Assembly (NCBI RefSeq): GCF_036323475.1
Contig: NZ_AP028934.1
Span: 1,426,001-1,490,000, forward strand
DNA from: Solobacterium moorei
GTDB lineage: Bacteria > Bacillota_I > Bacilli_A > Erysipelotrichales > Erysipelotrichaceae
DNA length: 64,000 nucleotides
Direction of reading: 5' to 3'
Positions 3,920-47,236 of this stretch are shown here, one piece after another. Made by a program: the position numbers and the translations under genes. The notes beneath the pieces are model-generated. The model worked only from the letters and a program-made list of their open reading frames with translations. It was not told the origin of the DNA and did not search any database. Every line of letters starts with the position of its first letter. Position 1 is the stretch's first letter.

Positions 3920-5779
3920 CTACAAATATTGTTGTACATCAGCTAAGAAGGTATTCATATCAATGTGATATTCCTTTCGTAGCTGTGCGCTTGTTCCTTG
4001 TGGTATAAACTTGTCAGGCAATCCGTAAATCTTGATTGGAAGACAAATCTCTGACTCATTTAGATATTGTAATATCAATGAGCCTAAGCCATTTGTCTTA
4101 TAATCCTGTTCATAGACAAATAGCTTTAATTTACGCTTTACAAGAGACATAATCATCTCTTGATCGAGCGGCTTGATATAACGTGCATTTACAATTGTTA
4201 CTGGAAGATTATTAGACATTACCTTATCTAATAACTTATTTACCATATCACCATAAGTGATAATAGCCACTTTATTTTCAGGTGAATCATGTAATAGTTC
4301 CCACTGTCCAATCGGAATTAAATTTGCTTTACATACAGCAGATGTTTTTACTTCACCCTTAGGGAATCGAACTGCAAAAGGATGATTTTGATTAAAAGCT
4401 GTATATAACAAGTCCTTAGCTTCTTGTGCATCTTTCGGATGGGAAATAATCATATTAGGTAGTCCGGATAGAATACCAATATCAAATATTCCTTGATGTG
4501 TTTCACCATCTCCTCCAACAAGTCCAGCATGATCTACACCAATAACAACCGGCAAATCCATACGACAAATATCATGGTTAATTTCATCGTATGCACGCTG
4601 TAAGAATGAACTATAGATACACATATATGGCTTCATACCAGAAATTGCTAGACCTGCAGCGAAAGTCGCTGTGTGTTCTTCCGCAATGCCAGTATCAAAA
4701 CTACGCTCTGGATACTTAGCAAACAAAACACCCATACCGCTACCATTGATCATTGCGGGAGTTAATGAAACAATGTCTTTATCATTCTGTGCAAACTCCG
4801 CAACACAATGACTCATAAATGGCCCCCACGCACTAAAACCACAAGGCACTTCATGTAATGGTTTGCCAGTTTCGATATTGAAAGGACCTACACCATGCCA
4901 ATGCCCCTCACTATCCTCTTCACACGGAGAATAACCTTTCCCCTTTTTTGTCATAACATGAATTAAAGTCGGACCACTATGATGCTTTGCAGTTTCTAAA
5001 ACTTGAATTAAATCATGAATATTATGTCCATCGACTGGTCCCATATAATCAAGGCCAAATTCTTCAAAAATACCACCATCAATAACAGCTTCACGCATAG
5101 AATCCTTGACTACCTTTAAACCTTTATATAGCGCATCACCAATTGGATTGCCTGATAATGAACGCTTTAAAGATGACTTAAATGTATTGTAACCTTTTAA
5201 TGTGCGTAGCTTTGAAAAACCTGCATTCATGGCACCGACATTTTTTGAGATAGACATATTGTTATCATTAAAAATAATAATAATATTGCGTTTTTCAACA
5301 CCAATTTCGTTTAGTGCTTCCAAAGATAAGCCATTACTAATAGCACCATCACCAATGACTGGAATGATACTATAATTCTCTTTGTTTAAATCTCTAGCAA
5401 CAGCCATACCTAATGCGGCAGAAAGTGACGTAGAACTGTGCCCAGCTTCCCAGACATCGTGTATACTTTCACTACGTTTTTGGAAACCAGATATGCCCTT
5501 ATATTGACGCAACGTCGAAAAACGATCAGCACGACCGGTTAAAATTTTATGTACATATGATTGATGGCCTACATCAAAAATAATCTTGTCTTTTGGTGAA
5601 TCAAATACATAATGTAATGCAATTGTTAATTCAACAATTCCTAAATTACTAGCTAGATGTCCACCTGTCTTAGATAAAGAGTAGATTAAAAATTTACGAA
5701 TTTGTTCAGCTAGGTCTTTTAGTTGACTGTTATTTAAAGTTTTTAGAAATGCGGGGTCACGAATTTCATTTAATTCCAT
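3920..5779 (-). CDS. dxs: 1-deoxy-D-xylulose-5-phosphate synthase
   Basis: A 619-residue thiamine-diphosphate enzyme that condenses pyruvate and glyceraldehyde-3-phosphate, the first step of the non-mevalonate isoprenoid pathway. The cofactor motif begins at GDG (143-145) and closes at FNDNNMS about 28 residues later. Conserved histidines are at GHQSYVH (about 72-77) and EAGHSS. The transketolase central domain carries EEHTATFAAGLA, and a C-terminal transketolase domain follows. It is 12 bp downstream of ispA, so two isoprenoid genes are adjacent in the operon. No ispC, D, E, F, G or H gene is in the window. Confidence 0.96.
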   Translation of the reverse strand: MELNEIRDPAFLKTLNNSQLKDLAEQIRKFLIYSLSKTGGHLASNLGIVELTIALHYVFDSPKDKIIFDVGHQSYVHKILTGRADRFSTLRQYKGISGFQKRSESIHDVWEAGHSSTSLSAALGMAVARDLNKENYSIIPVIGDGAISNGLSLEALNEIGVEKRNIIIIFNDNNMSISKNVGAMNAGFSKLRTLKGYNTFKSSLKRSLSGNPIGDALYKGLKVVKDSMREAVIDGGIFEEFGLDYMGPVDGHNIHDLIQVLETAKHHSGPTLIHVMTKKGKGYSPCEEDSEGHWHGVGPFNIETGKPLHEVPCGFSAWGPFMSHCVAEFAQNDKDIVSLTPAMINGSGMGVLFAKYPERSFDTGIAEEHTATFAAGLAISGMKPYMCIYSSFLQRAYDEINHDICRMDLPVVIGVDHAGLVGGDGETHQGIFDIGILSGLPNMIISHPKDAQEAKDLLYTAFNQNHPFAVRFPKGEVKTSAVCKANLIPIGQWELLHDSPENKVAIITYGDMVNKLLDKVMSNNLPVTIVNARYIKPLDQEMIMSLVKRKLKLFVYEQDYKTNGLGSLILQYLNESEICLPIKIYGLPDKFIPQGTSAQLRKEYHIDMNTFLADVQQYL

Positions 5780-5791
5780 AGAATATATCTC

Positions 5792-6628
5792 CTACTTACG
5801 ACGTTGTTGGATTTGACAAACGTATTCCAATAATTCTGCAGATTCAAATCCAGTTAATGTCTGAATTTCTTCAATCGCAGTTTGATATAAGTCGTTCATC
5901 ACTTCTTTAGCGCGTTCAATTCCTAAAATCGAAACACTAGTCCCCTTATGATTCTTTTGATCAGAATTTGATTTACCAAATTCTTTCGCAGTTAATTCGA
6001 TATCTAAAATATCATCTTGAATTTGGAAAGCTAGACCAAGTGAAAATCCTATCTTCTTCCATGTAGGAATATCTTCTTCATGTTTAGCAAGTGTACATGC
6101 TATTAAGAGAGGTGTTGTTAGTAAGCAACCCGTCTTATGTTCATGAATTCTTTGAAGCATATCCCAATCAATTTCTTTATATTCTGCTTCTAAATCTAGC
6201 TGCTGCCCATATACCATTCCGCTAGGTCCAGCCATCTTAGACAGTATAGAAATACATTTTAGCACTGTACCACTAGCTTCGTTTGAACCGGCCGCAATTT
6301 CAAATGCGTATGTTAATAGTCCATCACCAGCTAAAATTGCAGTTGCTTCATTAAATTGCTTATGACATGTCGGCAAACCTCTACGTAAATCATCATTATC
6401 CATCGCCGGTAAATCATCATGTATCAGAGAATATGTATGAATCATTTCTAATGCACAAGCAAATGGATCGCCGATTTCCGGATTAACACTGTACCCCTTT
6501 AAAACAGTGTAGAGAAGCTGTGGACGAATTCGTTTGCCTCCAGCGGTTAATGAATAAAGCATCGCAGATTTCGTTGTACTATCTGGAAGAGATTTTATGT
6601 AGTTTTCCAGAAGCAACTCAATTTGCAT
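5792..6628 (-). CDS. ispA: Polyprenyl (farnesyl/geranyl) diphosphate synthase
   Basis: About 278 residues; an all-alpha prenyltransferase that extends dimethylallyl diphosphate with isopentenyl diphosphate to make farnesyl diphosphate for undecaprenyl and quinone synthesis. The first aspartate-rich motif is DDLPAMDNDD and the second is DDILD, and the basic GGKRIRP motif lies near the N-terminus. Three in-frame ATGs occur at the start (6643, 6634, 6628). The one at 6628 has GGAGAG at proper spacing and is preferred. The gene overlaps the end of xseB, as is usual in Firmicutes nusB-xseAB-ispA-dxs operons. Confidence 0.93.
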   Translation of the reverse strand: MQIELLLENYIKSLPDSTTKSAMLYSLTAGGKRIRPQLLYTVLKGYSVNPEIGDPFACALEMIHTYSLIHDDLPAMDNDDLRRGLPTCHKQFNEATAILAGDGLLTYAFEIAAGSNEASGTVLKCISILSKMAGPSGMVYGQQLDLEAEYKEIDWDMLQRIHEHKTGCLLTTPLLIACTLAKHEEDIPTWKKIGFSLGLAFQIQDDILDIELTAKEFGKSNSDQKNHKGTSVSILGIERAKEVMNDLYQTAIEEIQTLTGFESAELLEYVCQIQQRRK

Positions 6629-6833
6629 TGTCATTCTCTCCATTTTTACGAATTACATCATTGATTTGTGATTCAAACTTCTTTAACTTTGTATCACAAG
6701 CTTTCACTAATTGAAGACCTTCTTCAAATAGTGTAATGGTTTCATCTAAAGGCTTTTCATTTTCTTCAAGATCATTGATAATTTCTTCTAATCGGTTCAT
6801 TGATTCTTCAAATGACTTATCCTTTGTTGGCAT
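6618..6833 (-). CDS. xseB: Exodeoxyribonuclease VII small subunit
   Basis: A 71-residue helical protein that partners XseA to form exonuclease VII, which degrades single-stranded DNA to acid-soluble oligonucleotides. The family pattern FEESMNRLEEIINDLE followed by PLDETITLFEEGLQL is present. An upstream in-frame ATG at 6863 would add 10 unlike residues. The start at 6833 is preferred because AAAGGAGG lies a few bases upstream and it gives the family's normal length. It overlaps the end of xseA by 17 bp. Confidence 0.94.
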   Translation of the reverse strand: MPTKDKSFEESMNRLEEIINDLEENEKPLDETITLFEEGLQLVKACDTKLKKFESQINDVIRKNGENDNAN

Positions 6834-8226
6834 GACTGACCTCCTTTGTTTGAACGATAGCACCTACTGTACCATCCGCTAAACGTATATTAATTTCATC
6901 ACCAATCTCTAATATATCTGTTGTATTGACAACTTTGTTATTTTTATAAGTGACGCTATATCCACGATTTAATACTAATAGTGGTGAATATGCATTTAAT
7001 AAAGACATATTCTTTTCTAACTTTGTTCTTCTATCATCAGCGGTAATACTTAATGTATGTTTCATTTGCGATTGATATTGAATAAGTAAATTCTTATTTG
7101 ATTGAACAGATTGCTTTGCGTACATTAACAATCTTTGTTTATCTTCTTGTATTGATTCATGTAATGCTGCAGAACGCTCTCGTATCAATTGAGAAAAGCG
7201 GTGAAACTTGTCATTCAATTCATGGCGTTTATCCTTTGGAAGTTCTTGAAAACGTATAAGTTTTTCAGCCAAATAATCCAAGCGAGTAATATAATCACGA
7301 TACAAACGTTCTGGCTTAGCAAGCACTGGTTGACTTGCGTTATAAACAAATCGTTTCTTCGCATGCATGAATGTATTACGCATTGCATTCATTAAACGAC
7401 TTCTACTATTCTGTAAAGTTGCTAGAACCTCTTGTATATCAGGAACGGTAGCTTCTACTGCGCCTGTTGGAGTATTAGCACGATAGTCAGACACAAAATC
7501 AACTAATGTAAAGTCAATCTCATGGCCAATGCCAGTAACAATTGGCGTTTTCATCTGGAAAATATATCTAGCGAGTGTTTCATCATTGAAACACCATAAA
7601 TCCTCAATAGATCCTCCACCACGTACTAGCATAATAACTTGGTGATTTCCATCATCCGCAGCTTGTAAAGCTGTAATGATTTTTGGGGCAGCATCCATAC
7701 CTTGTACAGGAGCTGGATATTCGGTTAGTTTTGCGATAGGCCAACGTTTCTTTAATGTAATTAAAGCATCTTCTCTTGCGGCGGTATTATTGCCGGTCAC
7801 AAGAGCGATATCCATTGGATATGCAGGCAGTGGTTTTTTATATCTAACATCAAACAATCCTTCATCACTTAACTTCTTTTTTAATAATTCAAACTGTTGA
7901 TACAATTGCCCAATACCGCTACGCTCCATATTGGTCGCAATCATCTGCATACTACCATCTACAACATAGACACTAACGTCACCCTTTAATACAACTTTAT
8001 CTCCATTTTCAGGCTTGAATCCTAACTTCTGATTTGCTGAAGAAAACATTACACACTTTAAAGTCGCATGATCATCTTTCAGTGAAAAATACCAGTGTCC
8101 ACTGTAAGGCATACGTATATTAGAAATTTCCCCCTCAATCATGACTCCATGTAAGACTGGATTTTCGTCCATTACTTTCTTTAAGTAATTTACAAGAGTA
8201 CTGACAGGGACAATACGTCTACTCAT
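6817..8226 (-). CDS. xseA: Exodeoxyribonuclease VII large subunit
   Basis: A 469-residue catalytic subunit of exonuclease VII. An N-terminal OB-fold (about 1-100, with VMIEGEISN and GHWYFSLKD) is followed by the catalytic region containing the conserved glycine-rich VRGGGSIEDLWCFNDE and the GIGHEIDFTLVDFVSD motif (about 235-255). A long coiled-coil region (about 270-400) holds the small subunits, and the C-terminus has a conserved GYS segment. The start shares an ATGA overlap with the nusB stop. Confidence 0.95.
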   Translation of the reverse strand: MSRRIVPVSTLVNYLKKVMDENPVLHGVMIEGEISNIRMPYSGHWYFSLKDDHATLKCVMFSSANQKLGFKPENGDKVVLKGDVSVYVVDGSMQMIATNMERSGIGQLYQQFELLKKKLSDEGLFDVRYKKPLPAYPMDIALVTGNNTAAREDALITLKKRWPIAKLTEYPAPVQGMDAAPKIITALQAADDGNHQVIMLVRGGGSIEDLWCFNDETLARYIFQMKTPIVTGIGHEIDFTLVDFVSDYRANTPTGAVEATVPDIQEVLATLQNSRSRLMNAMRNTFMHAKKRFVYNASQPVLAKPERLYRDYITRLDYLAEKLIRFQELPKDKRHELNDKFHRFSQLIRERSAALHESIQEDKQRLLMYAKQSVQSNKNLLIQYQSQMKHTLSITADDRRTKLEKNMSLLNAYSPLLVLNRGYSVTYKNNKVVNTTDILEIGDEINIRLADGTVGAIVQTKEVSHANKG

Positions 8227-8603
8227 ATTACATCTAATACGCTGTTTACTAACTTATATGTATCAGAGTCACAATAACGTTTTGCTAACTGAACAGATTG
8301 GTCAATAATAACAGCGGACTCCGTTTTCTTTAAATCAAATTCAGCACATCCGTTCAATAAGATTGCTTTCTCAATTAAGCCTAAACGTTCATAAGACCAG
8401 CCCTTCTTTAAGACTGAGTCAATATACTCTCGATAACGATCTTCGTTTGCAATTGATGTCTTAATGACATCAATAAAATATGGATCGATTTCACTTTCAT
8501 CAACTTTAAAAACATCATTGATAAGTGCGTGAATATCTCGTTGAACAATCAGGTATTGATATACCGTAATCATTGCGTTTTCTCTTTGGTCATGACGATT
8601 CAT
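8223..8603 (-). CDS. nusB: Transcription antitermination factor NusB
   Basis: A 126-residue all-helical RNA-binding protein that, with NusE (S10), forms the antitermination complex on rRNA boxA sequences. The family opening MNRHDQRENAMITVYQ is clear, and the C-terminal helices (ERLGLIEKAILLNGCAEF, IIDQSVQLAKRY) match NusB. The reading frame is open for a further 47 codons upstream. The ATG at 8603 is chosen because it begins the conserved domain and AGGAG lies 9 nt before it. It is the first gene of the eight-gene operon. Confidence 0.93.
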   Translation of the reverse strand: MNRHDQRENAMITVYQYLIVQRDIHALINDVFKVDESEIDPYFIDVIKTSIANEDRYREYIDSVLKKGWSYERLGLIEKAILLNGCAEFDLKKTESAVIIDQSVQLAKRYCDSDTYKLVNSVLDVI

Positions 8604-8661
8604 TTCTCTATAATCTCCTAACATATATTTTACCATGTTCATCCTTGTTTTGGGCATATTC

Positions 8662-8690
8662 TTGCCTGTTTTCATCGCTTGGATTAAAAT
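8662..8690 (+). promoter_or_regulatory. Candidate sigma-A promoter of the DUF5662 gene
   Basis: TTGCCT (8662-8667) and TAAAAT (8685-8690) are separated by 17 bp on the plus strand. The -10 box ends only 6 bp before the start codon at 8697, so a transcript from here would have almost no leader. Confidence 0.45.
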
Positions 8691-8696
8691 AGTCGC

Positions 8697-9269
8697 ATGA
8701 GTAAAAATAATAAACCAACATTTCTCCAAAAAACATTTCATCATCTAAAAACAATTGGTGAACATCGAAGTCTTGTTAGAAAGTTTTGCTTTCAGTGCGG
8801 TTTATATAAGCAGGGTTTAACACATGATTTATCAAAATATTCGTTTGCTGAGCTTATCCCTAGTATTCGTTATTATCAAGGTTATCGTTCCCCTTATACA
8901 AGGGAGAAAGAACTGAATGGTTATTCATTAGGTTGGCTTCATCACAAAGGTCGCAACAAACACCATTGGGAATATTGGTGGGATAAAATTGATGGTAAAT
9001 GGCAAGCTATCAAAATGCCACAAACCTATGTTGTTGAAAGTATCTGTGATCGTATCGCAGCGTGTAAAGTGTATCAGAAAGAACAATATACACAAGCATC
9101 ACCGCTAAACTATTACCTCAATAGTAACGATGAACAAAATCTTCACCCTCTTACTGCCAATCTATTTGAACGTATTCTTCGCTACATTCAAAAAAATGGT
9201 GAAGAAGATACATTTAAGAGAATTAAAGAACTCTTACACCAACAGAAAGATTTATATAAATCATTTTGA
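8697..9269 (+). CDS. DUF5662 family protein
   Basis: A 190-residue soluble protein rich in His, Tyr and Trp. It carries the blocks LTHDLSKYSFAEL (about 42-54), YYQGYR, and GWLHHKGRNKHHWEYW (about 80-96), which I recognise as the DUF5662 signature. Its function is unknown. The conserved HD and HxxxNKHHW residues could bind a metal, which is inference. It is divergent from nusB with 93 bp between starts. No ribosome binding site is visible upstream of the ATG and in-frame stops lie directly upstream, so a leaderless mRNA is possible. Confidence 0.8.
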   Translation: MSKNNKPTFLQKTFHHLKTIGEHRSLVRKFCFQCGLYKQGLTHDLSKYSFAELIPSIRYYQGYRSPYTREKELNGYSLGWLHHKGRNKHHWEYWWDKIDGKWQAIKMPQTYVVESICDRIAACKVYQKEQYTQASPLNYYLNSNDEQNLHPLTANLFERILRYIQKNGEEDTFKRIKELLHQQKDLYKSF

Positions 9270-9298
9270 CCTATAGCTATCTATAGGTTTTTATTTCG
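9270..9298 (+). terminator. Terminator of the DUF5662 gene
   Basis: CCTATAG and CTATAGG form a 7-bp stem around CTAT, followed by TTTTTATTT. It begins one base after the stop codon, so it terminates the plus-strand gene. Confidence 0.75.
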
Positions 9299-9384
9299 AC
9301 AAAATCAAAAGGCCCCTAAGCGAGACTGTTGAAAAAGTATCAGTCATAAACGAGATTTAATCAAATTGTTTACAAATCAGAATG

Positions 9385-12521: not shown

Positions 12522-13829
12522 TTATCTTGCCTCCTTCTTTAAGATGCTACGCACAACATGTAAAGCAGTATATGTAGAAAGAATATAACTATCCCTATCT
12601 GCTTTATCGATATACTTGATCGCTTCTTCAAAGTTTTCAATGACCTGAATATGGTCTTCTAAACCTTCATACTTCAAGCGCAAAGCCATATCATATGCAC
12701 GTGTTCCTGAACATACAATCGTATGAATATTCTCTTTATTAAGACGTTCAAAATGTGCATCCCAAATCCAACTGATATCTCTACCATCTTGGTCATTATC
12801 GTTTAAGAAGATAGCGATATTCTTATCACCTTCTTGGCTAACGATATACTTCATTACTTCATTTGCACCAGTTGGATTCTTTATTAGATTTAATACAGAT
12901 GGTTTACTGAGCACAAATACTTCATTACGTCCTTCCTTCATAGAGAACGTTTTAAATACTGTATTAGCCGCTTGTAAATCTAAACCCAATAAACGCATCA
13001 CTGTTAGTACAACTGCACAGTTATAGATTGCATAGATTGTATTCATAAAGGAATGATACTTTACACCATCTACTGTGAACGTCTGATTTTGATAATCAAT
13101 TTCTGAGACATATGTATATGGCGTAATCTTTCCAAATTGGCAGGATGGGCAAGCAAATCTTCCAATATGTGAATATTGGTAATACTCATAGACTAGCCGT
13201 GCACCACAATGTGGACAGAACTTACCTTCACTAGCTTCATTAGTGGTCTTTTGTGATACCTCATTTTCACCAACTGAGAAGTAATGTACTTTCGCTTTCT
13301 TTGCATTTTCAGCGATACGAACTACATTAGGATCATCTCCATTCATAATGAGATCTCCCTCAAAGTCTTCTGTTACTTCTTCAATCTTACGGATAATTGT
13401 TTCCATCTCTCCTGCACGATCTAATTGATCACGAAAGAAATTATTAACTACAAGTGCCGTTGGTCTTAACGATTTAAATTGACGATATAATGTTAATTCA
13501 TCGACTTCAATAACAGCCACGTCGGCTTGTACATTGAAGTCTGCATCAGAGCTAGCTGCTAATAATGTAGCAATACCTACATTCAAGTTATCACCACGAC
13601 TATTATTAATTACCTTCAAACCTGCTTGCATGAGTGATTTTGCGATAAGATTTGATGTAGTTGTCTTACCGTTTGTCCCTGTTACAAGAATCACATGCTT
13701 AGGCATATGGAATTTCTCAATGAAGCGAGAATCCATTTTTAGTGCTAATCGTCCTGGTAAGGAACCACCACGACCTACTGCAGTTAATGCTTTACGAACA
13801 ATTTGAACTGCTACTAAACGTAAATCCAT
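12522..13829 (-). CDS. murT: Lipid II isoglutaminyl synthase, Mur ligase subunit MurT
   Basis: A 435-residue Mur ligase-like protein that activates the D-Glu alpha-carboxyl of lipid II with ATP and accepts ammonia from GatD to give D-isoglutamine. The P-loop is VTGTNGKTTTSN (about 49-60). A Cys4 zinc ribbon inserted in the central domain is clear (FCPHCGARL and FACPSCQFG, about 205-235), and a C-terminal DUF1727 region follows. It is 2 bp downstream of yhaM in the same operon. Confidence 0.93.
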   Translation of the reverse strand: MDLRLVAVQIVRKALTAVGRGGSLPGRLALKMDSRFIEKFHMPKHVILVTGTNGKTTTSNLIAKSLMQAGLKVINNSRGDNLNVGIATLLAASSDADFNVQADVAVIEVDELTLYRQFKSLRPTALVVNNFFRDQLDRAGEMETIIRKIEEVTEDFEGDLIMNGDDPNVVRIAENAKKAKVHYFSVGENEVSQKTTNEASEGKFCPHCGARLVYEYYQYSHIGRFACPSCQFGKITPYTYVSEIDYQNQTFTVDGVKYHSFMNTIYAIYNCAVVLTVMRLLGLDLQAANTVFKTFSMKEGRNEVFVLSKPSVLNLIKNPTGANEVMKYIVSQEGDKNIAIFLNDNDQDGRDISWIWDAHFERLNKENIHTIVCSGTRAYDMALRLKYEGLEDHIQVIENFEEAIKYIDKADRDSYILSTYTALHVVRSILKKEAR

Positions 13830-37869: not shown

Positions 37870-39090
37870 CTAGTTCTTTCCACCAATGAGTTCAATGAAG
37901 GACTCACCGTTTTGTGGTGCTTCTACATTAAAGTAATCACAACAGCTAGCACCCATGTCAGACATTGTTTTACGCGTACCTACTTGTACTCCTTCTAATC
38001 CTTTGCGATAGATTAGAAGTGGAACGCATTCTCTTGTATGTTTAGAATGTCCAATATTCGGATCATTGCCATGGTCTGCTTGGATAATCAAAATATCATT
38101 TTCAGTTAGATGGGGAAGAATCTTTGCTAGTCCTTCATCTGCTTGTTTCAATACTTCAACATATCGAGCTGCGTTTTGCGCATGTCCTGCCAAATCTGTC
38201 TCTTGTACATTTGTACAGATAAATCCTTGTTCCATTTCAAGAATAGCATTCAAAGTGATTTCCATAACTTCTGGTGTAGGAACACATGAAATGGACTTCC
38301 CTAAATCATTAGCGACAATATCTGCAACCTTTCCAATAAGCGTACATGGGATGTCACTCTTGGTTAGTATTGTAGGTGCTTGTACTTCTTTATCCACACC
38401 ATAACCTAGATGAAGACATTGATAACCTTGGTCGTACGACTTTGATTTAGCTGAAGCGATCCCAATGTACTTTCCTTCGCGAATCTCTTCAGCATTATAT
38501 AAATCCTGCATTGTATTACCAGTTCCACCGAACACAATTACACGACCTACCGTAGAAACTTCACGAACTAGCTTTGCAATTGCGTACTCTTTTTCAAATG
38601 GCATGTAATCGAGTGGTGCTGTTACGTTATAGCACATACCTAGATCTGCTTCTAAGTTATCCGCAACTGTAGCATAATCATCTACAACGACGTAACGAAG
38701 ACCATTTCGGTTCATAATTTCAACCTTGTGTCCTGCATCTTTAAGATGCTTCGCAACTTCATCTACTTTCTCTTGGAAAGGAACAAACTGTGGTTTCTTT
38801 GGTTTGGTTCCCATGATTTCTTGGTGTCCCATGAATGTATCTGCACCTTGATGCATTAACTCACTTCTACCAAAGTTTGCTTTAGGTTGAAACTTCATGC
38901 AATTACTTTCTCTCCCAAATGCATTCATCAATCCTAACTTTTCTAGTGTAGGTAGTTTTAAGTCTGGAAATTCATCAAGTATAGAAGCTAGTGTATTCGC
39001 CTTTTCATCACCTGCTCTAGCTTGCGCAGCATCATGCATCGCTCCAATCCCAAAACCATCTAAGACAATAATAATGAATCTCTTTTTCAT
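37870..39090 (-). CDS. yhfW: YhfW-like phosphopentomutase-family protein
   Basis: A 406-residue metalloenzyme of the alkaline phosphatase superfamily, close to phosphopentomutase. Metal ligands are visible in IVLDGFGIGAMHDA (Asp about 10), GADTFMGHQEIMG (the Thr/Ser phosphate carrier region, about 82), QADHGNDPNIGHSKHTRE (Asp/His cluster, about 337-354) and NVQETDLAGHAQN. Its substrate in the yhf context is unknown, probably a phosphorylated sugar or amino-sugar (inference). Its ATG overlaps the yhfX-like stop as ATGA. It is the last gene of the cluster. Confidence 0.88.
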   Translation of the reverse strand: MKKRFIIIVLDGFGIGAMHDAAQARAGDEKANTLASILDEFPDLKLPTLEKLGLMNAFGRESNCMKFQPKANFGRSELMHQGADTFMGHQEIMGTKPKKPQFVPFQEKVDEVAKHLKDAGHKVEIMNRNGLRYVVVDDYATVADNLEADLGMCYNVTAPLDYMPFEKEYAIAKLVREVSTVGRVIVFGGTGNTMQDLYNAEEIREGKYIGIASAKSKSYDQGYQCLHLGYGVDKEVQAPTILTKSDIPCTLIGKVADIVANDLGKSISCVPTPEVMEITLNAILEMEQGFICTNVQETDLAGHAQNAARYVEVLKQADEGLAKILPHLTENDILIIQADHGNDPNIGHSKHTRECVPLLIYRKGLEGVQVGTRKTMSDMGASCCDYFNVEAPQNGESFIELIGGKN

Positions 39091-40244
39091 TTCTTGCCTC
39101 CTAAACTATCATATACACCTACAATCTCAGGAGTTCCTGATTGAATTCCCTTAATTAGACACACATCACTACGTGTTACAAATATCTGATAACGAAAACA
39201 TAATATAGCACTATCACCGATATTATGTGGATTCTCCAATCCAAAATGATAATCAATGGAATCCATATCCGGAAGAATAACACTATCCTTTTCTAGTTCT
39301 TCATAAGAAGTACCAACCAATGCATTTTGAATATGACCACGTCTATAATATCCACCACCATAGATGTATGCATGATTATCTAATACGTGACTTACTTCCG
39401 AAAGATATAAAATACTTGGAATTTCCACTGTATCATGATTAATATGATACGGAGTCGTACCCGAAAGACCATGACCTGGTTCAGCAGATGTAATATCAGG
39501 ATATTGTTTCATCAGTTCTAATGTATGCACGCATGTGGCTGAAGGTGCGTTGACATTTTGAATATGACAACCTAGTGCTTCTAAAATCTTCTTTGCCTTT
39601 AGGACTGTATGTAGATTTTCTTGTGCTTTAATCTCTTTTGTTGCTTCATCATATAAAAAGCACGGAAAATTATCGACACCTGCAAGTTCAATATGTGTTA
39701 AGTCTTTTGACTTTTGTACAAGTTCTTTTAATTGGTTTAAATAAAAGCCTGCTGTCTGTCCACTATAAATTCGATCATTTTCACCAATGACACGTACACA
39801 GACCTTTTGAATCATACCCATCTTTTTAGCCGCTTCATTCACTTCAACTAATTTTTCATACGAATACACAGTGACATAGTCACAACCATACGCTACCAGC
39901 CGGTTTACCATCATTGATGGAATCTGTACCAAATGTCCTGCATGTGCAATGTGTAGTTGATTTTTCATCATCACTTCTGCTTCTTTAAAATCAACTACAA
40001 CTGCTCCTTTATAACCAATTTTTTCTAATTCCTTTGCTAAATATGGATTACGTCCAATTTGTTTTAGCATGTAATAAAGTTCGATATTTTGTTCATTTGC
40101 TTTTTGTAAAATCGCTTTTGCATTCTCTAAAAATTGATCAACATCCACAACATATGTATCAGGCATAATCTGTTCCTGTTGATGCATATGCACAGCTGTT
40201 TGAATAAGATTTGGATTTGTCTTACATAACTTATCTAGAAACAT
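39087..40244 (-). CDS. yhfX: YhfX-like PLP-dependent racemase-fold protein
   Basis: A 385-residue protein related to fold-type III PLP enzymes (alanine racemase N-terminal barrel). The cofactor Lys is likely in LYYMLKQIGRNPYLAKEL (about 62), where alanine racemases have YAVVKANAYG. AGVDNFPCFLYD and TSAEPGHGLSGTTP are specific to the YhfX group. The reaction is not established. It overlaps the end of the yhfS-like gene by 14 bp. Confidence 0.88.
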   Translation of the reverse strand: MFLDKLCKTNPNLIQTAVHMHQQEQIMPDTYVVDVDQFLENAKAILQKANEQNIELYYMLKQIGRNPYLAKELEKIGYKGAVVVDFKEAEVMMKNQLHIAHAGHLVQIPSMMVNRLVAYGCDYVTVYSYEKLVEVNEAAKKMGMIQKVCVRVIGENDRIYSGQTAGFYLNQLKELVQKSKDLTHIELAGVDNFPCFLYDEATKEIKAQENLHTVLKAKKILEALGCHIQNVNAPSATCVHTLELMKQYPDITSAEPGHGLSGTTPYHINHDTVEIPSILYLSEVSHVLDNHAYIYGGGYYRRGHIQNALVGTSYEELEKDSVILPDMDSIDYHFGLENPHNIGDSAILCFRYQIFVTRSDVCLIKGIQSGTPEIVGVYDSLGGKK

Positions 40245-41337
40245 CTTTCGCCTTTCTAATACTCTCTTTTAGAATACGTATAATCGTATCTGCTCCACTT
40301 CGATTTGGATTGATACGAATCATTCTTTCTTCTAGTGTTGGATCTGCTTTTCTAAATGTTCCGGATACACGATAAAACATAGGAACTGCTTCATATTTGG
40401 ATTCAGCACCAACCGGATTTGGTAATCCACCTAGCTTCTCTGCTTCATCTAATACTGCTTTTGCGATATCACCTTCAAATTCAACTAATAATACTTTTGA
40501 TTGTGCATTTGCTAAGAATGCTTCTTTTACACCTTCAACTTCATGATTGTTTAAACGTCTTACAAGCTCCTCATTTACTTCCGCTTGAATCGCTAGTGCT
40601 ACAGGTGCATAGGTAAAACCTCGTAACACTTCCATTGCTTGCCAACCCTGAACTTTCGAACCACCAGAGTAATTCATCTTTTCAATTGCATCTACTATAG
40701 ATGCTTTACCAACCACAACTCCAACTCCCTCTGGTCCTAATAGTTTAAAACAAGAGAAAGCAGATAAGTCAGCACCTAATTCAACACCAATTTTATGTAC
40801 CTTCATTACTGCATAATTATCATCTGTGATGATTTGAATATCTCTTATGGATTTGATTGTCTGAAGCACTTCTTCCATATCATAAGAATCATCAATCGCT
40901 TGACGTGTGTATTGAACAAGAGCAGTACGGATATTCTGATGTTCCTCTAGAACATGCTTGATATCTTCCAAATCGTTAAAGTTAGCCCTGACTGGAATTA
41001 ATCCCATAGATGAAAAACTAACTTCAGTAGTTGGATATATTGGAGAAGTATGTACTAAGATTTCTTCATTTGCAGAAGCCATGACTTGAAGCCCACTACG
41101 AATAGCACCTGTACCAGAACCAATTAATAACAGCGCCTTCTCAGCATGAAAGAAATTCGCAATGACTCTTTCAACCTTTTCAGCATATACTGGTTTATTT
41201 AAACCAGGTACTACACCAAAATCTCCGGCAGAAAGAAATTCCTTCCCTTGAAATTCTTTTGTGATCGCATCAATTAGTTGAAACTGTTTTTGTTTAGCTT
41301 CTTCTAAACTGATGGATTTTAAAGGATATGTGTTCAT
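40231..41337 (-). CDS. yhfS: YhfS-like PLP-dependent aminotransferase-fold protein
   Basis: A 368-residue protein with the fold-type I PLP layout: a cofactor-anchoring region (LIGSGTGAIRSGLQ, about 92), the Asp that holds the pyridine nitrogen (IITDDNYAVMKVH, about 178) and the Schiff-base Lys in LSAFSCFKLLGPEGVG (about 198). It most resembles Escherichia coli YhfS, whose physiological reaction is unassigned. It follows the php-like gene after a 50-bp gap that contains a hairpin. Confidence 0.88.
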   Translation of the reverse strand: MNTYPLKSISLEEAKQKQFQLIDAITKEFQGKEFLSAGDFGVVPGLNKPVYAEKVERVIANFFHAEKALLLIGSGTGAIRSGLQVMASANEEILVHTSPIYPTTEVSFSSMGLIPVRANFNDLEDIKHVLEEHQNIRTALVQYTRQAIDDSYDMEEVLQTIKSIRDIQIITDDNYAVMKVHKIGVELGADLSAFSCFKLLGPEGVGVVVGKASIVDAIEKMNYSGGSKVQGWQAMEVLRGFTYAPVALAIQAEVNEELVRRLNNHEVEGVKEAFLANAQSKVLLVEFEGDIAKAVLDEAEKLGGLPNPVGAESKYEAVPMFYRVSGTFRKADPTLEERMIRINPNRSGADTIIRILKESIRKAKDVSR

Positions 41338-41359
41338 GTAATACCTCCAGTTAAAATTA

Positions 41360-41380
41360 GGCTCAGAATATCTCTGAGCC
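41360..41380 (-). terminator. Intra-operon hairpin between php and yhfS
   Basis: GGCTCAGA and TCTGAGCC form a perfect 8-bp stem with a 5-nt loop, followed on the minus strand by TAATTTTAAC. The incomplete T-run suggests partial termination or an RNA processing or stability element that sets the ratio of upstream to downstream genes. Confidence 0.5.
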
Positions 41381-41387
41381 GTTTATT

Positions 41388-42296
41388 TTATTGAATATCA
41401 AAAATCCTACTTGGATTCTTTATCAATAGATGATCAATATCATCTTGACAAATACCGCGTTCTTTTAGAAGTGGTATAAACTTATCTAAAACAGCTGTAT
41501 ATCCGTTATATTCTCCAAAAGTCTTCATATATGATTTTCTAGAGATATCTGCTGAAAGAATAATATTGTTTACATAGCCTTCTTTGATAAGTTGTGCAAG
41601 ATTATCAGCTCTACTTTCGTCTTTTAGATACGACGTTTTTCCTATCGTATCAAAACCAATGTTTGCACCACGGTCCATTAATGATTTCATATATGCAATA
41701 TCATTAGAAAGATCAATGTGACCAAGTATAACCTTGTTAAGTGGCATAGCTTTCTCTGTAAAGATATCCAACTGTTGATGGCCTAAAGTTCCCATTTGGC
41801 AATGCGTAGAAACACAACATCCAACTTTCTTTCCAGCAATCGCAGCAGCAGCAAGAACCTTCTTTTCATCTTCGGTCATTACTTTACTTGTCGCAACTTC
41901 TCCGATTACGCCAGCTCTAATATTAGTGTCATCAATACCTACTGTTAAATCTTTAATGAATATTTCAGCAATATCATCCTCGCTCATTTCATGAATATAC
42001 TGTGGGTGATACTGTTCTAAATAGAAACCAGTTGGTGCAATAATATGAACATCACAAGCATTTGAAAGCTTAAGTAAATCATTCACATTTCTTCCCATAT
42101 CATTTGTGGACATTTCCACAAATGCTTGAACACCACACTCTTTTGCAAAGTTGATTTCATCAATTATCAATGGTGAATATCCAAATGTTGAATCAGGATC
42201 ATTACGAATTCTGCCAAGATCAACAGATAAGTGTTCATGACACATAGTGACTCCTAATTTACTAGGATCAATATAGCCTCTCACAGTACGAATCAT
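41388..42296 (-). CDS. php: Phosphotriesterase homology protein (Php/YhfV)
   Basis: A 302-residue TIM-barrel metal hydrolase of the phosphotriesterase family. Metal ligands are HxH in MCHEHLSVD (about 19-21), His in STHCQMGTLGH (about 163) and GHIDLSND (about 193), and the Asp in ILSADISRKSY (about 251). A conserved Glu takes the place of the bridging Lys (GVIGEVATSK, about 128). The natural substrate of Php proteins is unknown; related enzymes act on lactones and phosphodiesters. It lies 15 bp downstream of the yhfT-like gene. Confidence 0.9.
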   Translation of the reverse strand: MIRTVRGYIDPSKLGVTMCHEHLSVDLGRIRNDPDSTFGYSPLIIDEINFAKECGVQAFVEMSTNDMGRNVNDLLKLSNACDVHIIAPTGFYLEQYHPQYIHEMSEDDIAEIFIKDLTVGIDDTNIRAGVIGEVATSKVMTEDEKKVLAAAAIAGKKVGCCVSTHCQMGTLGHQQLDIFTEKAMPLNKVILGHIDLSNDIAYMKSLMDRGANIGFDTIGKTSYLKDESRADNLAQLIKEGYVNNIILSADISRKSYMKTFGEYNGYTAVLDKFIPLLKERGICQDDIDHLLIKNPSRIFDIQ

Positions 42297-42311
42297 AAAA
42301 CCCTCGCTTTT

Positions 42312-43619
42312 CTAACCAGCTAGTCCAATAAGCTGAACAAGATATAGTAAGTTTAAGATAATTCCACAAGCGATAGCAGCGATTGGACCAATAGCCATAC
42401 GCATTACTTTTCTACCTGTAGCTTCATTAATTAAGTAAATTGTTCCACCGATGAAGAATCCACCAGCTGCGCCAATCGTTGTAGCAGCACCCATAGATGC
42501 ACACGCTCCAATAGAACCGATTAATAATGCAAATTCAACAACTTGGTTCATTGATGAACGAATATTGTCAGAAGCATCACGGATTGATGGGAATCCACCT
42601 AAGAATTTACCTACAAATCCAAGTAACATTACTTCCGCAAAGATAATACCAGCACCAAGTACCACAGCAATAATTGGGTTAGGACTTAAGTATCCTGCAA
42701 CATATACGAATGTGAATCCTGCAACACCATATACACCTGTTGTAATCGCTGTTGTTGCAATTAATGGAATAAAGCTTAAACCACGCATCAATTCATTAGT
42801 AGCAGCTGTACGAACTAGATCCACATTGCCAGAAGCGTATGCTGTAGATAAATCAAACATAGATACTGTTGACCCTGCAAAAATATGTAAATTACAGATT
42901 AATGCAATCAACGCACCAGCAGCCATTAAAAATGGTAAATTTTTCTTAATTCTGCCTACTCTTTCACTAAAAATATTATTAGAATCATCTTCAGTTTCTT
43001 TATTTTTGTTGCTCAAGTCTTTAATGATGCATAATCCAATTAAGATAATAACACCAGTCATCATTGTCCATGCATCAGCACTAATTGTAGAGAACTTAGG
43101 ACCCAGAATTCTAATTACTAATACAACTAAAGCAGAAATTAACCCCTTCTTTGTACCAAATTGCATGAAGATTGCAACAATTGGGAAGATTGCAAATCCA
43201 GTAACTACATAAGTTCCTACTTGACCCATACCACCAATTAAGTCGATTGGTAATCCTGTAAGTACAGCATTAATAGCACTAATACCTGTCAAGCATAGTA
43301 AACCATATAGACCACCTAAAATTGGAGCCAACCATTTCTTAGGTGAAGCGATACCGATAATATCAGTCGCTAAGAATAATAACCATGGATTCATCAAGTT
43401 TGTTGCTAAAGCATTACCAATACCAACAGAAGCAATAAATCCTACACTTAAACCAAACGCAACAGAAGCAATCTCTGAACGCTTCATACGTTTCTCAAGA
43501 TACTCTGGGATAACAGGTCTAATTCCATCATGGAATACAGCCATACCCATGTGTGACATAAATGATGTAAGTGCACATAATGCAATTACAGATAAAGCAT
43601 TAATTAGATTAATTTCCAT
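42312..43619 (-). CDS. yhfT: YhfT-like membrane transporter
   Basis: A 435-residue integral membrane protein with about 11-12 hydrophobic helices and a charged cytoplasmic loop (KDLSNKNKETEDDSNN, about 200-215). HMGMAVFHDGIRPVIPEYLE near the N-terminus is characteristic of YhfT. It is presumably the substrate importer or exporter of the cluster. It lies between the yhfU-like and php-like genes with spacings of 14-15 bp. Confidence 0.88.
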   Translation of the reverse strand: MEINLINALSVIALCALTSFMSHMGMAVFHDGIRPVIPEYLEKRMKRSEIASVAFGLSVGFIASVGIGNALATNLMNPWLLFLATDIIGIASPKKWLAPILGGLYGLLCLTGISAINAVLTGLPIDLIGGMGQVGTYVVTGFAIFPIVAIFMQFGTKKGLISALVVLVIRILGPKFSTISADAWTMMTGVIILIGLCIIKDLSNKNKETEDDSNNIFSERVGRIKKNLPFLMAAGALIALICNLHIFAGSTVSMFDLSTAYASGNVDLVRTAATNELMRGLSFIPLIATTAITTGVYGVAGFTFVYVAGYLSPNPIIAVVLGAGIIFAEVMLLGFVGKFLGGFPSIRDASDNIRSSMNQVVEFALLIGSIGACASMGAATTIGAAGGFFIGGTIYLINEATGRKVMRMAIGPIAAIACGIILNLLYLVQLIGLAG

Positions 43620-43633
43620 AATAACTATCTCCC

Positions 43634-43993
43634 TTATTTATTTTTTAAAGCATCAATTAAAATTGGAACTGTATCGGTAATACTTGATATAGTCATACCA
43701 AAGCAGATCTTCCCATCATTAACTGCTTTGACAATTTCATCTTTATTTGGTCGTTGACCATTTTTACAAACAGTCGCACATTTACTATATCCAACTAAAC
43801 CAATCAGAATAGAAATTGCAGAACCTCCACCACTTTCACAGGCACCTAAATAATAATCAGCTTCACCTGATTTAAGTAGCTTTGATGCGTTTAAATCATT
43901 TGTAATAATTGTTTCAATTTGTGGATCAGCTTTTTTTACAGCTAATTCCATCTCATTCTTTTGCATTCCCCCAATAGCAATTTTCACTCCCAT
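43634..43993 (-). CDS. yhfU: YhfU-like DUF2620 protein
   Basis: A 119-residue soluble alpha/beta protein. It begins with a strand-glycine pattern (KIAIGGMQKNEMEL), has the glycine-rich CESGGGSAISILIGLVGYSKCATV (about 51-75) and ends in a helix (SITDTVPILIDALKN). It matches DUF2620, the YhfU family. The fold resembles small PTS or sensor domains, but no function is known. The ATG at 43993 has GATAGGTG upstream. It lies between the yhfY-like and yhfT-like genes. Confidence 0.85.
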   Translation of the reverse strand: MGVKIAIGGMQKNEMELAVKKADPQIETIITNDLNASKLLKSGEADYYLGACESGGGSAISILIGLVGYSKCATVCKNGQRPNKDEIVKAVNDGKICFGMTISSITDTVPILIDALKNK

Positions 43994-43996
43994 CAC

Positions 43997-44359
43997 CTAT
44001 CTTTCTAGCAAATTGCAAATATGGATTAATAATAAGATTTTTTCTCCTTCAGGAATTTCTACCTGAAATAAACCTTCTATTTCATCAAGTATTTTAGAAG
44101 CCTCAGCGAAGTTACCATTTTGCTTAATTTCGTCAACAATATTCTCATCGGCGCAAGCCTCACATTCACCTTTTTCAACACGTGATAATGCAATTGCTAA
44201 ATGAACACAAAACACATCCATCTTCTCTTGGCCAAAATCGTCAGAAATATCTAAAAATTTATCTACTACTAATTCCGACTTTTCTCTCACTGTTGATGAA
44301 ATGATATTAGCTTCATGCAAAATATCTAAACGTTCAATAATACTATTCTTATCAATCAT
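43997..44359 (-). CDS. yhfY: YhfY-like PRD-domain protein
   Basis: A 120-residue stand-alone PTS-regulation-type domain. The pattern of helices and the His in DVFCVHLAIALSRVEKGE (about 51) match PRDs, in which such histidines are phosphorylated by PTS proteins. A second His (LLLIHICNLLE) is near the C-terminus. There is no DNA-binding or RNA-binding domain. It is the first gene after the internal promoter and is followed immediately by the yhfU-like gene. Confidence 0.85.
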   Translation of the reverse strand: MIDKNSIIERLDILHEANIISSTVREKSELVVDKFLDISDDFGQEKMDVFCVHLAIALSRVEKGECEACADENIVDEIKQNGNFAEASKILDEIEGLFQVEIPEGEKILLLIHICNLLER

Positions 44360-44373
44360 ATCTTTCTCACTTT

Positions 44374-44383
44374 TTAATATTCA
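44374..44383. promoter_or_regulatory. Single operator-like half of the YhfZ site in the yhfY leader
   Basis: TTAATATTCA matches the palindrome TGAATATTCA found twice upstream of yhfZ at nine of ten positions. It lies about 15 bp before the yhfY-like start, downstream of the internal promoter, so the same regulator may control both units. Confidence 0.35.
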
Positions 44384-44405
44384 ATATTTTGTATTTTGTA
44401 AATTA

Positions 44406-44433
44406 ATAATAACATAATCAATATTACCGTCAA
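44406..44433 (-). promoter_or_regulatory. Internal promoter of the yhfY-W operon
   Basis: On the minus strand TTGACG (44428-44433) and TATTAT (44406-44411) are 16 bp apart, about 47 bp upstream of the yhfY-like start and just after the tyrosine phosphatase gene. Confidence 0.55.
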
Positions 44434-44446
44434 CAAATATTTAAAA

Positions 44447-45235
44447 TTATTCTAAAAATTGTTCTTTGATATAGCAGCAAAGATCCGTATCAACGCCATA
44501 TTCTTTTAAGAAGAATTCTTCATAGTTTGGGTATATATCTAAAATACCATCTATCATTTCCCTACCCATTTGTTCATCAACACCTGCTTCCATCATGATA
44601 TTTCGTTTAAGTGATGGATTCTTTTGAATTGCAGCTTTATTCTTTGCTAATGCCAATTCAATGCGTGCGTGATAAGCCCTATTTGATAGAAGATAGTCTT
44701 CTATGATATCTTCTTTTGGTACACCTAACAGTAAATATAACAAAACTGCAATTGCCCCTGTTCTATCTTTTCCTGTTGCGCAATGAAATAACAGTGGAAA
44801 TTCTATATTTTGTTTAATCATTTCAAGAATAAACATGAATCCTTCATTCTTAAACATCATATTCCTATATAGTTCTGCCATATGCTTATGTAGTGTTTCT
44901 TCGTCACTATCATCCGCAATGATCATCTTATGAATACCATATGGAGAAAAATCTACTCCCTCGCCATTACGATCACGCATACCGCTGACACGATAATTAA
45001 CAATTCCGTCGATGAGAGGATCTGGTTCTTCATACGCTTCATAAGAAGTACGTAAATCGAGTACTGTTTTGATACCCAGATTTTGAAGATGTTTTAACTC
45101 CTCTTTATTCATCCAGCCAAGAAAACAGCTGCGATATAATAATCCAGTCTTTACACTTTTTCCATCTACTGTAGAATACCCGCCAAGGTCTCTAAAATTA
45201 CAAATCTCACGGAAGTTGCTATCTAATATTCTCAT
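44447..45235 (-). CDS. Tyrosine-protein phosphatase-type protein in the yhf cluster
   Basis: 262 residues. The P-loop HCATGKDRTGAIA (Cys152, Arg158) and the N-terminal NFRDLGGYST are typical of the bacterial tyrosine/lipid phosphatase family (Y_phosphatase3, LipA/MptpB-like). LDLRTSYE and the C-terminal helices complete the domain. It could act on phosphotyrosine, phosphoinositides or a small phosphorylated metabolite. It lies 11 bp downstream of the yhfZ-like regulator on the same strand. No such gene is part of the Escherichia coli yhf operon, so it is an addition here. Confidence 0.88.
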   Translation of the reverse strand: MRILDSNFREICNFRDLGGYSTVDGKSVKTGLLYRSCFLGWMNKEELKHLQNLGIKTVLDLRTSYEAYEEPDPLIDGIVNYRVSGMRDRNGEGVDFSPYGIHKMIIADDSDEETLHKHMAELYRNMMFKNEGFMFILEMIKQNIEFPLLFHCATGKDRTGAIAVLLYLLLGVPKEDIIEDYLLSNRAYHARIELALAKNKAAIQKNPSLKRNIMMEAGVDEQMGREMIDGILDIYPNYEEFFLKEYGVDTDLCCYIKEQFLE

Positions 45236-45246
45236 GCATAATTTCC

Positions 45247-46173
45247 CTAATAACTTGGTGTTACAGTTCCATCTAACACTAAATCTTGAACTGCTAGTGT
45301 TTCTTTTACATCAAGCATCTGCCGTAATAACTCCGTCATCTCTGGTGTTTTACCATTTGTTACAATGACCGCATTTGTATCATCATTATCATCGATTGAA
45401 ACCTTCACGTAGTTTACTTTAGACATCTTATCGATAATTTCATCTTCATTCCATACTGCCGCATCAATTTCTCCATTTTGAACTAAACGCAATAAATTAT
45501 TTGATTCTACAGGGATGAATTCAACTTTCTTCATTCCGCATGCACGCTTTGTCATATCACTTTGATCAATCGAATCTCGATCAATCCCTACACGCATACC
45601 ATCTTGAATTTCTTTGGCATGAGGATCATGGAATACAATTACGTGTGATGAACAATATGTCCCTTCTCCAAATTCACATACAATATCAATTTGTCCCTTA
45701 TGTGCATCTAAGAATTCTTTTGCTGCATATTTTGAAACAACTGCGAAATTATAGCGATTCTCTAATACCATCGCAATTCGATTCTTCGCACCTCTCATAT
45801 AAGAAAGTGTCATTGGAATTCCATGTTTATTTTCCATTGTGGTAATAATGCCAGTCGCTAACCCCTCATACTTTCTAGAGTATGGTAAAGGCATAGCACC
45901 AACTAGTAAATTGATTCCAGCAAGTTCAAGTAGAATCTTGTCATTCTTTTCGATAACATAAGATCCTAAATGCCCCTTACTCACAATGTGAATTGCGTTA
46001 TTATTCTGTAGTGTTTTAATTGCAGATTGCGCAGTTCCTCTAGAAATATTCAATTTCTCACTTAGCTCTGTAACAGTTGGCGTGCGATCTCCTACTTTGT
46101 ATTTTAGAAGTGCTTTTGCTAGACTCAATACCGCAAGTCCGTTTTTACTCATTAGTTGATTATTATAGTTCAT
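45247..46173 (-). CDS. yhfZ: YhfZ-like transcriptional regulator
   Basis: 308 residues. The N-terminal winged helix-turn-helix (about 15-75, with TPTVTELSEKLNISRGTAQSAI) is GntR-like. The rest (about 85-300) resembles a type 2 periplasmic-binding-protein fold used as an effector-sensing domain (MTLSYMRGAKNRIAMVLENR, RLVQNGEIDAAVWNEDEI). It matches the YhfZ family. It starts with ATG at 46173 after AGGAG. Two perfect copies of a 10-bp palindrome lie just upstream, so it probably regulates its own operon. Confidence 0.88.
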   Translation of the reverse strand: MNYNNQLMSKNGLAVLSLAKALLKYKVGDRTPTVTELSEKLNISRGTAQSAIKTLQNNNAIHIVSKGHLGSYVIEKNDKILLELAGINLLVGAMPLPYSRKYEGLATGIITTMENKHGIPMTLSYMRGAKNRIAMVLENRYNFAVVSKYAAKEFLDAHKGQIDIVCEFGEGTYCSSHVIVFHDPHAKEIQDGMRVGIDRDSIDQSDMTKRACGMKKVEFIPVESNNLLRLVQNGEIDAAVWNEDEIIDKMSKVNYVKVSIDDNDDTNAVIVTNGKTPEMTELLRQMLDVKETLAVQDLVLDGTVTPSY

Positions 46174-46200
46174 AGTTTAACTCCTATAAACATTATAGAA

Positions 46201-46226
46201 TGAATATTCATTTATTTGAATATTCA
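46201..46226. promoter_or_regulatory. Tandem palindromic operator upstream of yhfZ
   Basis: TGAATATTCA occurs at 46201-46210 and 46217-46226, each a perfect 10-bp palindrome, with centres 16 bp apart. It lies 27 bp upstream of the yhfZ-like start in the divergent spacer. The arrangement suits binding of two dimers of a GntR-like regulator. Confidence 0.65.
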
Positions 46227-46348
46227 ATTAAACTTAAATTTTATAAAATTGTATTTATCATTAGCAATACCTTAGTGATACAATTTGTATAAAGATAACA
46301 TCTCGATTCATACATATTTCATAATTGATAGAAAGTGAGGATAAAAAT

Positions 46349-47236
46349 ATGTTTGTGGATAATAAATTTTATAATGATGTTTATCGGATGAGTAAAAAGA
46401 GTTTTATGAAATACTTTATTTTGTATTTGTTTTTACAATTATTATTGACTACCATACCTGAATTACCGTCCATTCAGATGATTTTAGCTGGTACTATAAA
46501 TCCTTTTAATTTTACTGAAGTAGCACATACTAGCTTCCTTCTATCATTTAGTTGTTCAATTATAATACAGTTTTTTACACTTCTAATCCTTATGCAGATT
46601 TTCCGAATCATACAGGGTTCTTATACAAAACTAATTGATTTATTTGAACCTTTAAGAGAAAAATGGTTGATTATCTTATGTATCTCCGCTTTTATCGCAT
46701 TTCTAGATAATTTATTTACGCATAACATTTCCAATACAATTTTATTGGTAATTCTAAAGTTAGCACTTTACTATTTAACAATATTTATTGCTTTTTCGAT
46801 TTATACTTATCCAACACATGCATATCAAGACGGAATTAGAAGTAGTATCAAAGAAGCCATTGATTCATTAATAGATATAATAAAGATAGACATTCACTAT
46901 ATGTGGATTTGCTTAGCTGCCTTACTCTTTACCATTGTCATCATATTTCCAATTCTAAGAACTATCTTTGGTGGGTCTTTACTTCTACCACTAGTTGCAT
47001 TGGATAATCCTAGTGCTTTAAATACACTTTCTAAATCAATGATGCCATTATTTACCGCAATGTTTATAGCTATACTTCTTGTATCGATTCTTACGCAATA
47101 CAGATTATTCTGTGCATATTATGCACATGCATTGTATTACTTCAAAAAGTATGTAGAAATAAAACCAGACGAATCAGAAACACTTACACAGTCAACTGAA
47201 TCAACATATATGATTGATAAAAATGAAGATGCTTAA
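46349..47236 (+). CDS. Integral membrane protein of unknown function
   Basis: About 295 residues with roughly six hydrophobic segments, including YFILYLFLQLLLTTI (about 25-40), FSCSIIIQFFTLLILMQIF (about 68-86), ILCISAFIAFL, TILLVILKLALYYLTIFIAF, WICLAALLFTIVIIF and MFIAILLVSILTQYRLFCAYYA. The C-terminal 30 residues are polar. I recognise no family. The start at 46349 is preferred over 46325 because AGTGAGGA lies upstream of it. It is divergent from yhfZ and shares the spacer with the operator, so it might be a member of the yhfZ regulon. Confidence 0.75.
   Translation: MFVDNKFYNDVYRMSKKSFMKYFILYLFLQLLLTTIPELPSIQMILAGTINPFNFTEVAHTSFLLSFSCSIIIQFFTLLILMQIFRIIQGSYTKLIDLFEPLREKWLIILCISAFIAFLDNLFTHNISNTILLVILKLALYYLTIFIAFSIYTYPTHAYQDGIRSSIKEAIDSLIDIIKIDIHYMWICLAALLFTIVIIFPILRTIFGGSLLLPLVALDNPSALNTLSKSMMPLFTAMFIAILLVSILTQYRLFCAYYAHALYYFKKYVEIKPDESETLTQSTESTYMIDKNEDA

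Follow-up and report, generated by a model that had tools for sequence, protein, structure and literature searches.

A predicted 26-bp operator of the YhfZ regulator in front of yhfZ in Solobacterium moorei, with a second copy in the yhfY leader and counterparts at other yhf loci

The 26 bp at positions 46201-46226 of the window (the whole 64,000-nucleotide stretch of Solobacterium moorei DNA that was analysed) very probably form one operator, to which YhfZ would bind as a repressor both of its own promoter and, by means of a second copy at 44374-44399, of the yhf operon. This reading is built on sequence comparison, and the features that it involves are the following.

46201-46226, minus strand: O-Z, inverted repeat of 26 bp with arms at 46201-46210 and 46217-46226, separated by 6 bp; predicted to be the operator of yhfZ that YhfZ binds
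44374-44399, minus strand: O-Y, ACAAAATACAAAATATTGAATATTAA; predicted to be the operator through which YhfZ acts on the yhfY-U-T-php-S-X-W part, and the highest-scoring place of the 64-kb window in the matrix scan
46192-46220, minus strand: predicted yhfZ promoter, TTCAAA-17-TATAAT, with its -35 and spacer under O-Z (consensus match only)
44406-44433, minus strand: predicted yhfY promoter, TTGACG-16-TATTAT, with a TG before the -10 (consensus match only)
45247-46173, minus strand: yhfZ, GntR-type regulator, with HTH_41 at residues 26-73 and YhfZ_C at residues 79-308
44447-45235, minus strand: tyrosine-phosphatase-like gene (Y_phosphatase3), between yhfZ and yhfY
43997-44359, minus strand: yhfY-like gene for a PRD protein
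37870-43996, minus strand: yhfU, yhfT, php, yhfS, yhfX and yhfW, predicted controlled operon
46349-47236: divergent membrane protein gene

The genes follow each other in the order yhfZ, tyrosine-phosphatase-like, yhfY (PRD), YhfU/DUF2620, YhfT, Php, YhfS, YhfX and YhfW, so the genomic linkage of yhfZ to yhfY/U/T/php/S/X/W is present. The product of yhfZ is a full-length member of the YhfZ family: it matches positions 2-304 of the 304 of NCBIfam NF041241 with 378.9 bits (cut-off 260) and has the HTH_41 plus YhfZ_C layout of that family. NF041241 names YhfZ a GntR-family regulator; the match to the Pfam GntR model is weak (24.1 bits, below the cut-off of 27). Residues 26-73 form a winged helix-turn-helix, and the C-terminal domain is matched by chain 2ozz_A of PDB entry 2ozz, its solved relative. 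An AlphaFold model built on three sequences had a low overall quality (pLDDT 55.8). The names given to the two genes by the sequence-only reading were right, yhfZ with its 379 bits and yhfY as the gene of a PRD protein followed by the yhf genes.

That reading had also noted that TGAATATTCA occurs twice, 16 bp apart, directly upstream of yhfZ. Both copies are exact (46201-46210 and 46217-46226, start-to-start spacing 16 bp) and yhfZ is the next gene, with 27 bp between its ATG at 46173 and the nearest copy. Read on the yhfZ strand, O-Z is TGAATATTCA-AAATAA-ATGAATATTCA, without any mismatch to TSAATATWCA-N6-TGWATATTSA. The whole genome (2,615,268 bp) contains three copies of TGAATATTCA, the two of O-Z and one within a coding sequence. 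Single-mismatch matches to the 10-mer in the window number 15 versus 7.65 expected, which is mildly unusual taken alone. When the pair was made degenerate (TGAANNTTCA-N6-TGAANNTTCA), it was found in 2 of 272 genomes of the family, directly upstream of yhfZ both times, and its reversed control in none of the 272. The nine-of-ten match reported in the yhfY leader, TTAATATTCA, is indeed there, at 44374-44383 with 14 bp between it and the ATG (44359) of the yhfY-like gene, as one arm of the full site O-Y (44374-44399), which has three mismatches to the same consensus.

When the leaders at some 47 yhfZ loci were read, a recurrent site emerged in relatives: an inverted repeat of 26 bp, TSAAWATACA-N6-TGTATWTTSA, with the 10-6-10 geometry of the window pair and with arms that differ at no more than one or two positions in ten. 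It typically comes just after a TTGACA/TATAAT-like promoter and before yhfY, a zinc-ribbon membrane protein gene or yhfU; the zinc-ribbon gene that carries the site in front precedes yhf genes. Two copies, 58-63 bp apart and on either side of the promoter, are present in L019 and L021-L024. In G534 and G682, yhfZ and the operon are transcribed away from each other, with the site in the intergenic stretch between them. Across gene orders the site tracks the promoter, be it before yhfY, between yhfZ and a divergent yhfX/yhfY, or upstream of yhfZ.

The nearest orthologue (YhfZ 80% identical) is found in a MAG of the Erysipelotrichaceae (JALENJ010000035.1; G570, locus L053). Its yhfZ site, TGAATGTTCA-AAAAAC-TGAACATTCA, is at the same distance to TATAAT as in the window, and it is kept although the upstream neighbour gene is unrelated to that of the window. 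The yhfY leader of L054 (YhfZ 73% identical) has TTAATATACA-AAATAC-TGAATAATGG; there, no site is found before yhfZ, which lies 17 bp after another gene. The operator is thus conserved in relatives, as the sequence-only reading called for; O-Z itself is kept upstream of yhfZ in one close relative only. Further away, a site found by eye in Cetobacterium, CTTATTTTCA-N6-TGAAAATTAG, lies between the promoter and yhfZ; Vibrio has a weak site, and no site is present in the Microbacterium record. Some 20 of the approximately 47 yhfZ loci show no site above 13 bits; most of them have a divergent YhfZ or short flanks.

A few peculiarities of gene content and arm sequence were encountered in the course of this comparison. 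Many relatives have the operator in front of a small zinc-ribbon membrane protein gene, located between yhfZ and the yhf genes (L073:2471-2902; also downstream of yhfZ in L004, L010, L018, L020, L025, L026, L029, L033 and L034), which is absent from the locus of the window. Some yhf operons have an amidase-like gene between yhfT and php (L053:13844-14893, L059:11968-12999), again without counterpart in the window. The tyrosine-phosphatase-like gene at 44447-45235 is common to the window and G570, and to G534 elsewhere in the locus; it is not found in L054. In G161, a mannose-class PTS operon with amidohydrolase-like and BtpA-like genes (recognised by eye) and no yhf enzymes begins with the gene of a YhfZ homologue, itself preceded by a matching 26-bp site (L068:4793-4818, 4833-9328). 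Covariation of the recognition helix with TTCA versus TACA cores gave no clean rule.

A scoring matrix was derived from 24 relatives' sites, leaving out the window, G570, L054 and E. coli. Over the 64-kb window it ranked O-Y first (22.4 bits) and O-Z second (18.7 bits). For comparison, the best score in 40 random 64-kb sequences had a median of 9.4 and reached 21.1 at the highest, and the chance per position of attaining at least 18.7 bits is ~7e-7, even under a leader-composition null. Lower-ranked matches at 12708 and 58328 fall within coding sequences (MurT-like and aspartyl-tRNA-synthetase-like, by eye). Over L053 (21 kb), the yhfY and yhfZ leaders came first and second, and over L054 the yhfY leader came first. 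Searching the 272 genomes with the consensus at one mismatch or less returned 14 matches, 13 of them at yhfZ loci. Of the 13 genomes with such near-perfect matches, 12 carry yhfZ, versus 43 of 272 overall (hypergeometric P 7e-10); the reversed control matched in one genome. Pattern searches with three mismatches were unspecific. Since the consensus was read from the very loci that this search recovers, the weight of the specificity rests on the near-absence of matches elsewhere; the out-of-sample cases are the window, G570, L054 and E. coli.

Among enterobacteria, the sample consisted of E. coli alone. Over 13 kb of E. coli K-12, the top two sites given by the matrix were on the yhfX side, TAAATATTCA-N6-TGAATATTTA between yhfY and yhfX (13.8 bits), and on the yhfZ side, TAAATATTCA-N6-TGAAAATTTA immediately before yhfZ (7.7 bits). 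A further site, CTTATCTTCA-N6-TGAAGATATA, abuts the latter on its upstream side; it was found by eye and not by the matrix. Because the matrix scores them low, this site and that of Cetobacterium are weaker evidence. Three divergent E. coli strains keep the yhfX-side site; on the yhfZ side, two of the three have an altered version of the site, and none was found in the third, UPEC_U013. The K-12 operon (yhfZYXW-php-yhfUTS) is similar to that of the window in having 10-6-10 sites at yhfZ and at a second promoter. It differs in the location of that second site, before yhfX instead of yhfY, and in position 2 of the arms, which is A rather than G or C. Judged by these matches, the predicted operator, which many gut bacteria have at yhf promoters, recurs in a second phylum.

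Rarity, placement and recurrence in relatives all favour the YhfZ operator proposed by the sequence-only reading; what has to be revised is its anatomy, which was described as two tandem palindromes. Among 68 half-sites, T7 is invariant, C9 is found in 66 and A10 in 63. In the 24 relatives' sites, the symmetry from arm to arm across the 6-bp centre averages 7.5 out of 10, versus 1-4 of 5 pairs (usually 2-3) for the palindromy of an arm with itself, and this arm symmetry speaks against tandem independent palindromes as the conserved unit. Most likely, 46201-46226 is one 26-bp inverted repeat, the arms of which happen to be palindromic here, because TTCA replaces TACA in this variant and position 2 is a G. 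One could still picture two tandem 10-bp operators, 16 bp apart on different faces of the helix, that would each take one YhfZ dimer and cooperate, in keeping with the perfect 10-bp palindrome formed by each window arm and with the arms of G570 and of E. coli yhfX, palindromic at 4 of 5 pairs. This arrangement is unlikely in view of the low self-matching of the relatives' arms, and of the left arm of O-Y (ACAAAATACA), where one pair in five is palindromic and the site is conserved nonetheless.

It is slightly less probable still that the site is that of a different regulator, one whose gene lies elsewhere and that controls the yhf locus. The roughly 20 yhfZ loci devoid of a site, mostly with divergent YhfZ, would fit such a situation, but near-perfect sites are almost confined to yhfZ-carrying genomes, where they adjoin yhfZ, they recur at both yhfZ and yhfX in E. 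coli, and that of G161 adjoins a YhfZ homologue without any yhf enzyme gene. Chance AT-rich sequence or a leader RNA hairpin can be set aside almost entirely. The AT-richness of the region and the fair number of single-mismatch 10-mers in the window are in favour of this reading. Against it stand the rarity of the palindromes in the genome and the family and their out-of-sample recovery by the matrix; what makes an RNA element unlikely is the position of the yhfZ site, which precedes the predicted -10 of yhfZ and so would lie outside the yhfZ transcript.

As to how a single 26-bp YhfZ operator might work, the positions of both sites would suit repression. O-Z lies over the predicted -35 (46215-46220) and extends through the spacer to within 3 bp of the -10 (46192-46197), so that YhfZ would repress its own promoter there, and O-Y begins 6 bp downstream of the predicted -10 (44406-44411), over the likely start point, from where YhfZ would repress the yhf operon. 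Since each of the two window sites overlaps a predicted promoter, the most likely role of YhfZ is to repress its own gene and the yhf operon. In the proposed scheme, a YhfZ dimer or a pair of dimers would bind the 26-bp operator and block the yhfZ promoter at O-Z (autorepression) and the yhf operon at O-Y, until released by a small molecule that the Yhf enzymes or transporter would handle and that YhfZ_C would sense. We infer three components of this scheme: YhfZ as the binder, repression as the effect and the existence of an effector. The type of domain that YhfZ_C represents suggests that it may sense a pathway compound.

The divergent membrane protein gene at 46349 had been suggested as a possible member of the same regulon, a suggestion for which no support was found. 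The gene (46349-47236) has no Pfam or NCBIfam match, the other yhfZ loci examined contain no homologue of it, its place is taken by an unrelated gene in the closest orthologous locus (G570/L053), and the best match to a promoter for it begins 28 bp past O-Z, at 46255. An effect of O-Z on it at a distance is conceivable. A 13-bp palindrome, ATACAATTTGTAT, lies at 46278-46290 over the predicted promoter of this gene, with a matching AAATTGTAT arm at 46246-46254. As a copy of the YhfZ-type operator it was rejected, its centre of 3 bp being too short; it is possibly the site of another regulator.

The predicted element is of an ordinary kind: an inverted repeat that serves as operator for a local repressor regulating its own gene. 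Autoregulating GntR repressors of the HutC/TreR type have a GntR-type winged helix-turn-helix, to which YhfZ shows a weak Pfam match, and a palindromic operator over their own and the operon promoter, as predicted for YhfZ. YhfZ differs from them by its C-terminal domain, YhfZ_C, and by a predicted operator of 26 bp with a 6-bp centre; GntR-family operators are typically shorter. In the open-access journal papers that mention yhfZ, titles and the beginnings of abstracts give no sign of work on DNA binding by YhfZ or of a described operator for any member of the family, nor is regulation of the yhfT/U/X/Z genes by YhfZ apparent from titles and abstracts. The yhf gene products of E. coli K-12 are still annotated 'putative' or 'uncharacterized'.

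We tentatively consider that YhfZ and its operator, with the unusually long 10-6-10 structure, may be an ancient pair that has moved together across the phyla Bacillota, Fusobacteriota and Proteobacteria through many rearrangements of the yhf operon, and that the same site may also serve YhfZ homologues whose operons have no yhf enzymes, as in the mannose-class PTS operon of G161. YhfZ and the yhf operon are uncharacterised, those of E. coli K-12 included, and the predicted operator gives a concrete candidate for the binding site. The three candidate sites in E. coli K-12 open the way to binding tests, reporters and inducer screens, and an inducer of YhfZ would give a clue to what the pathway acts on.
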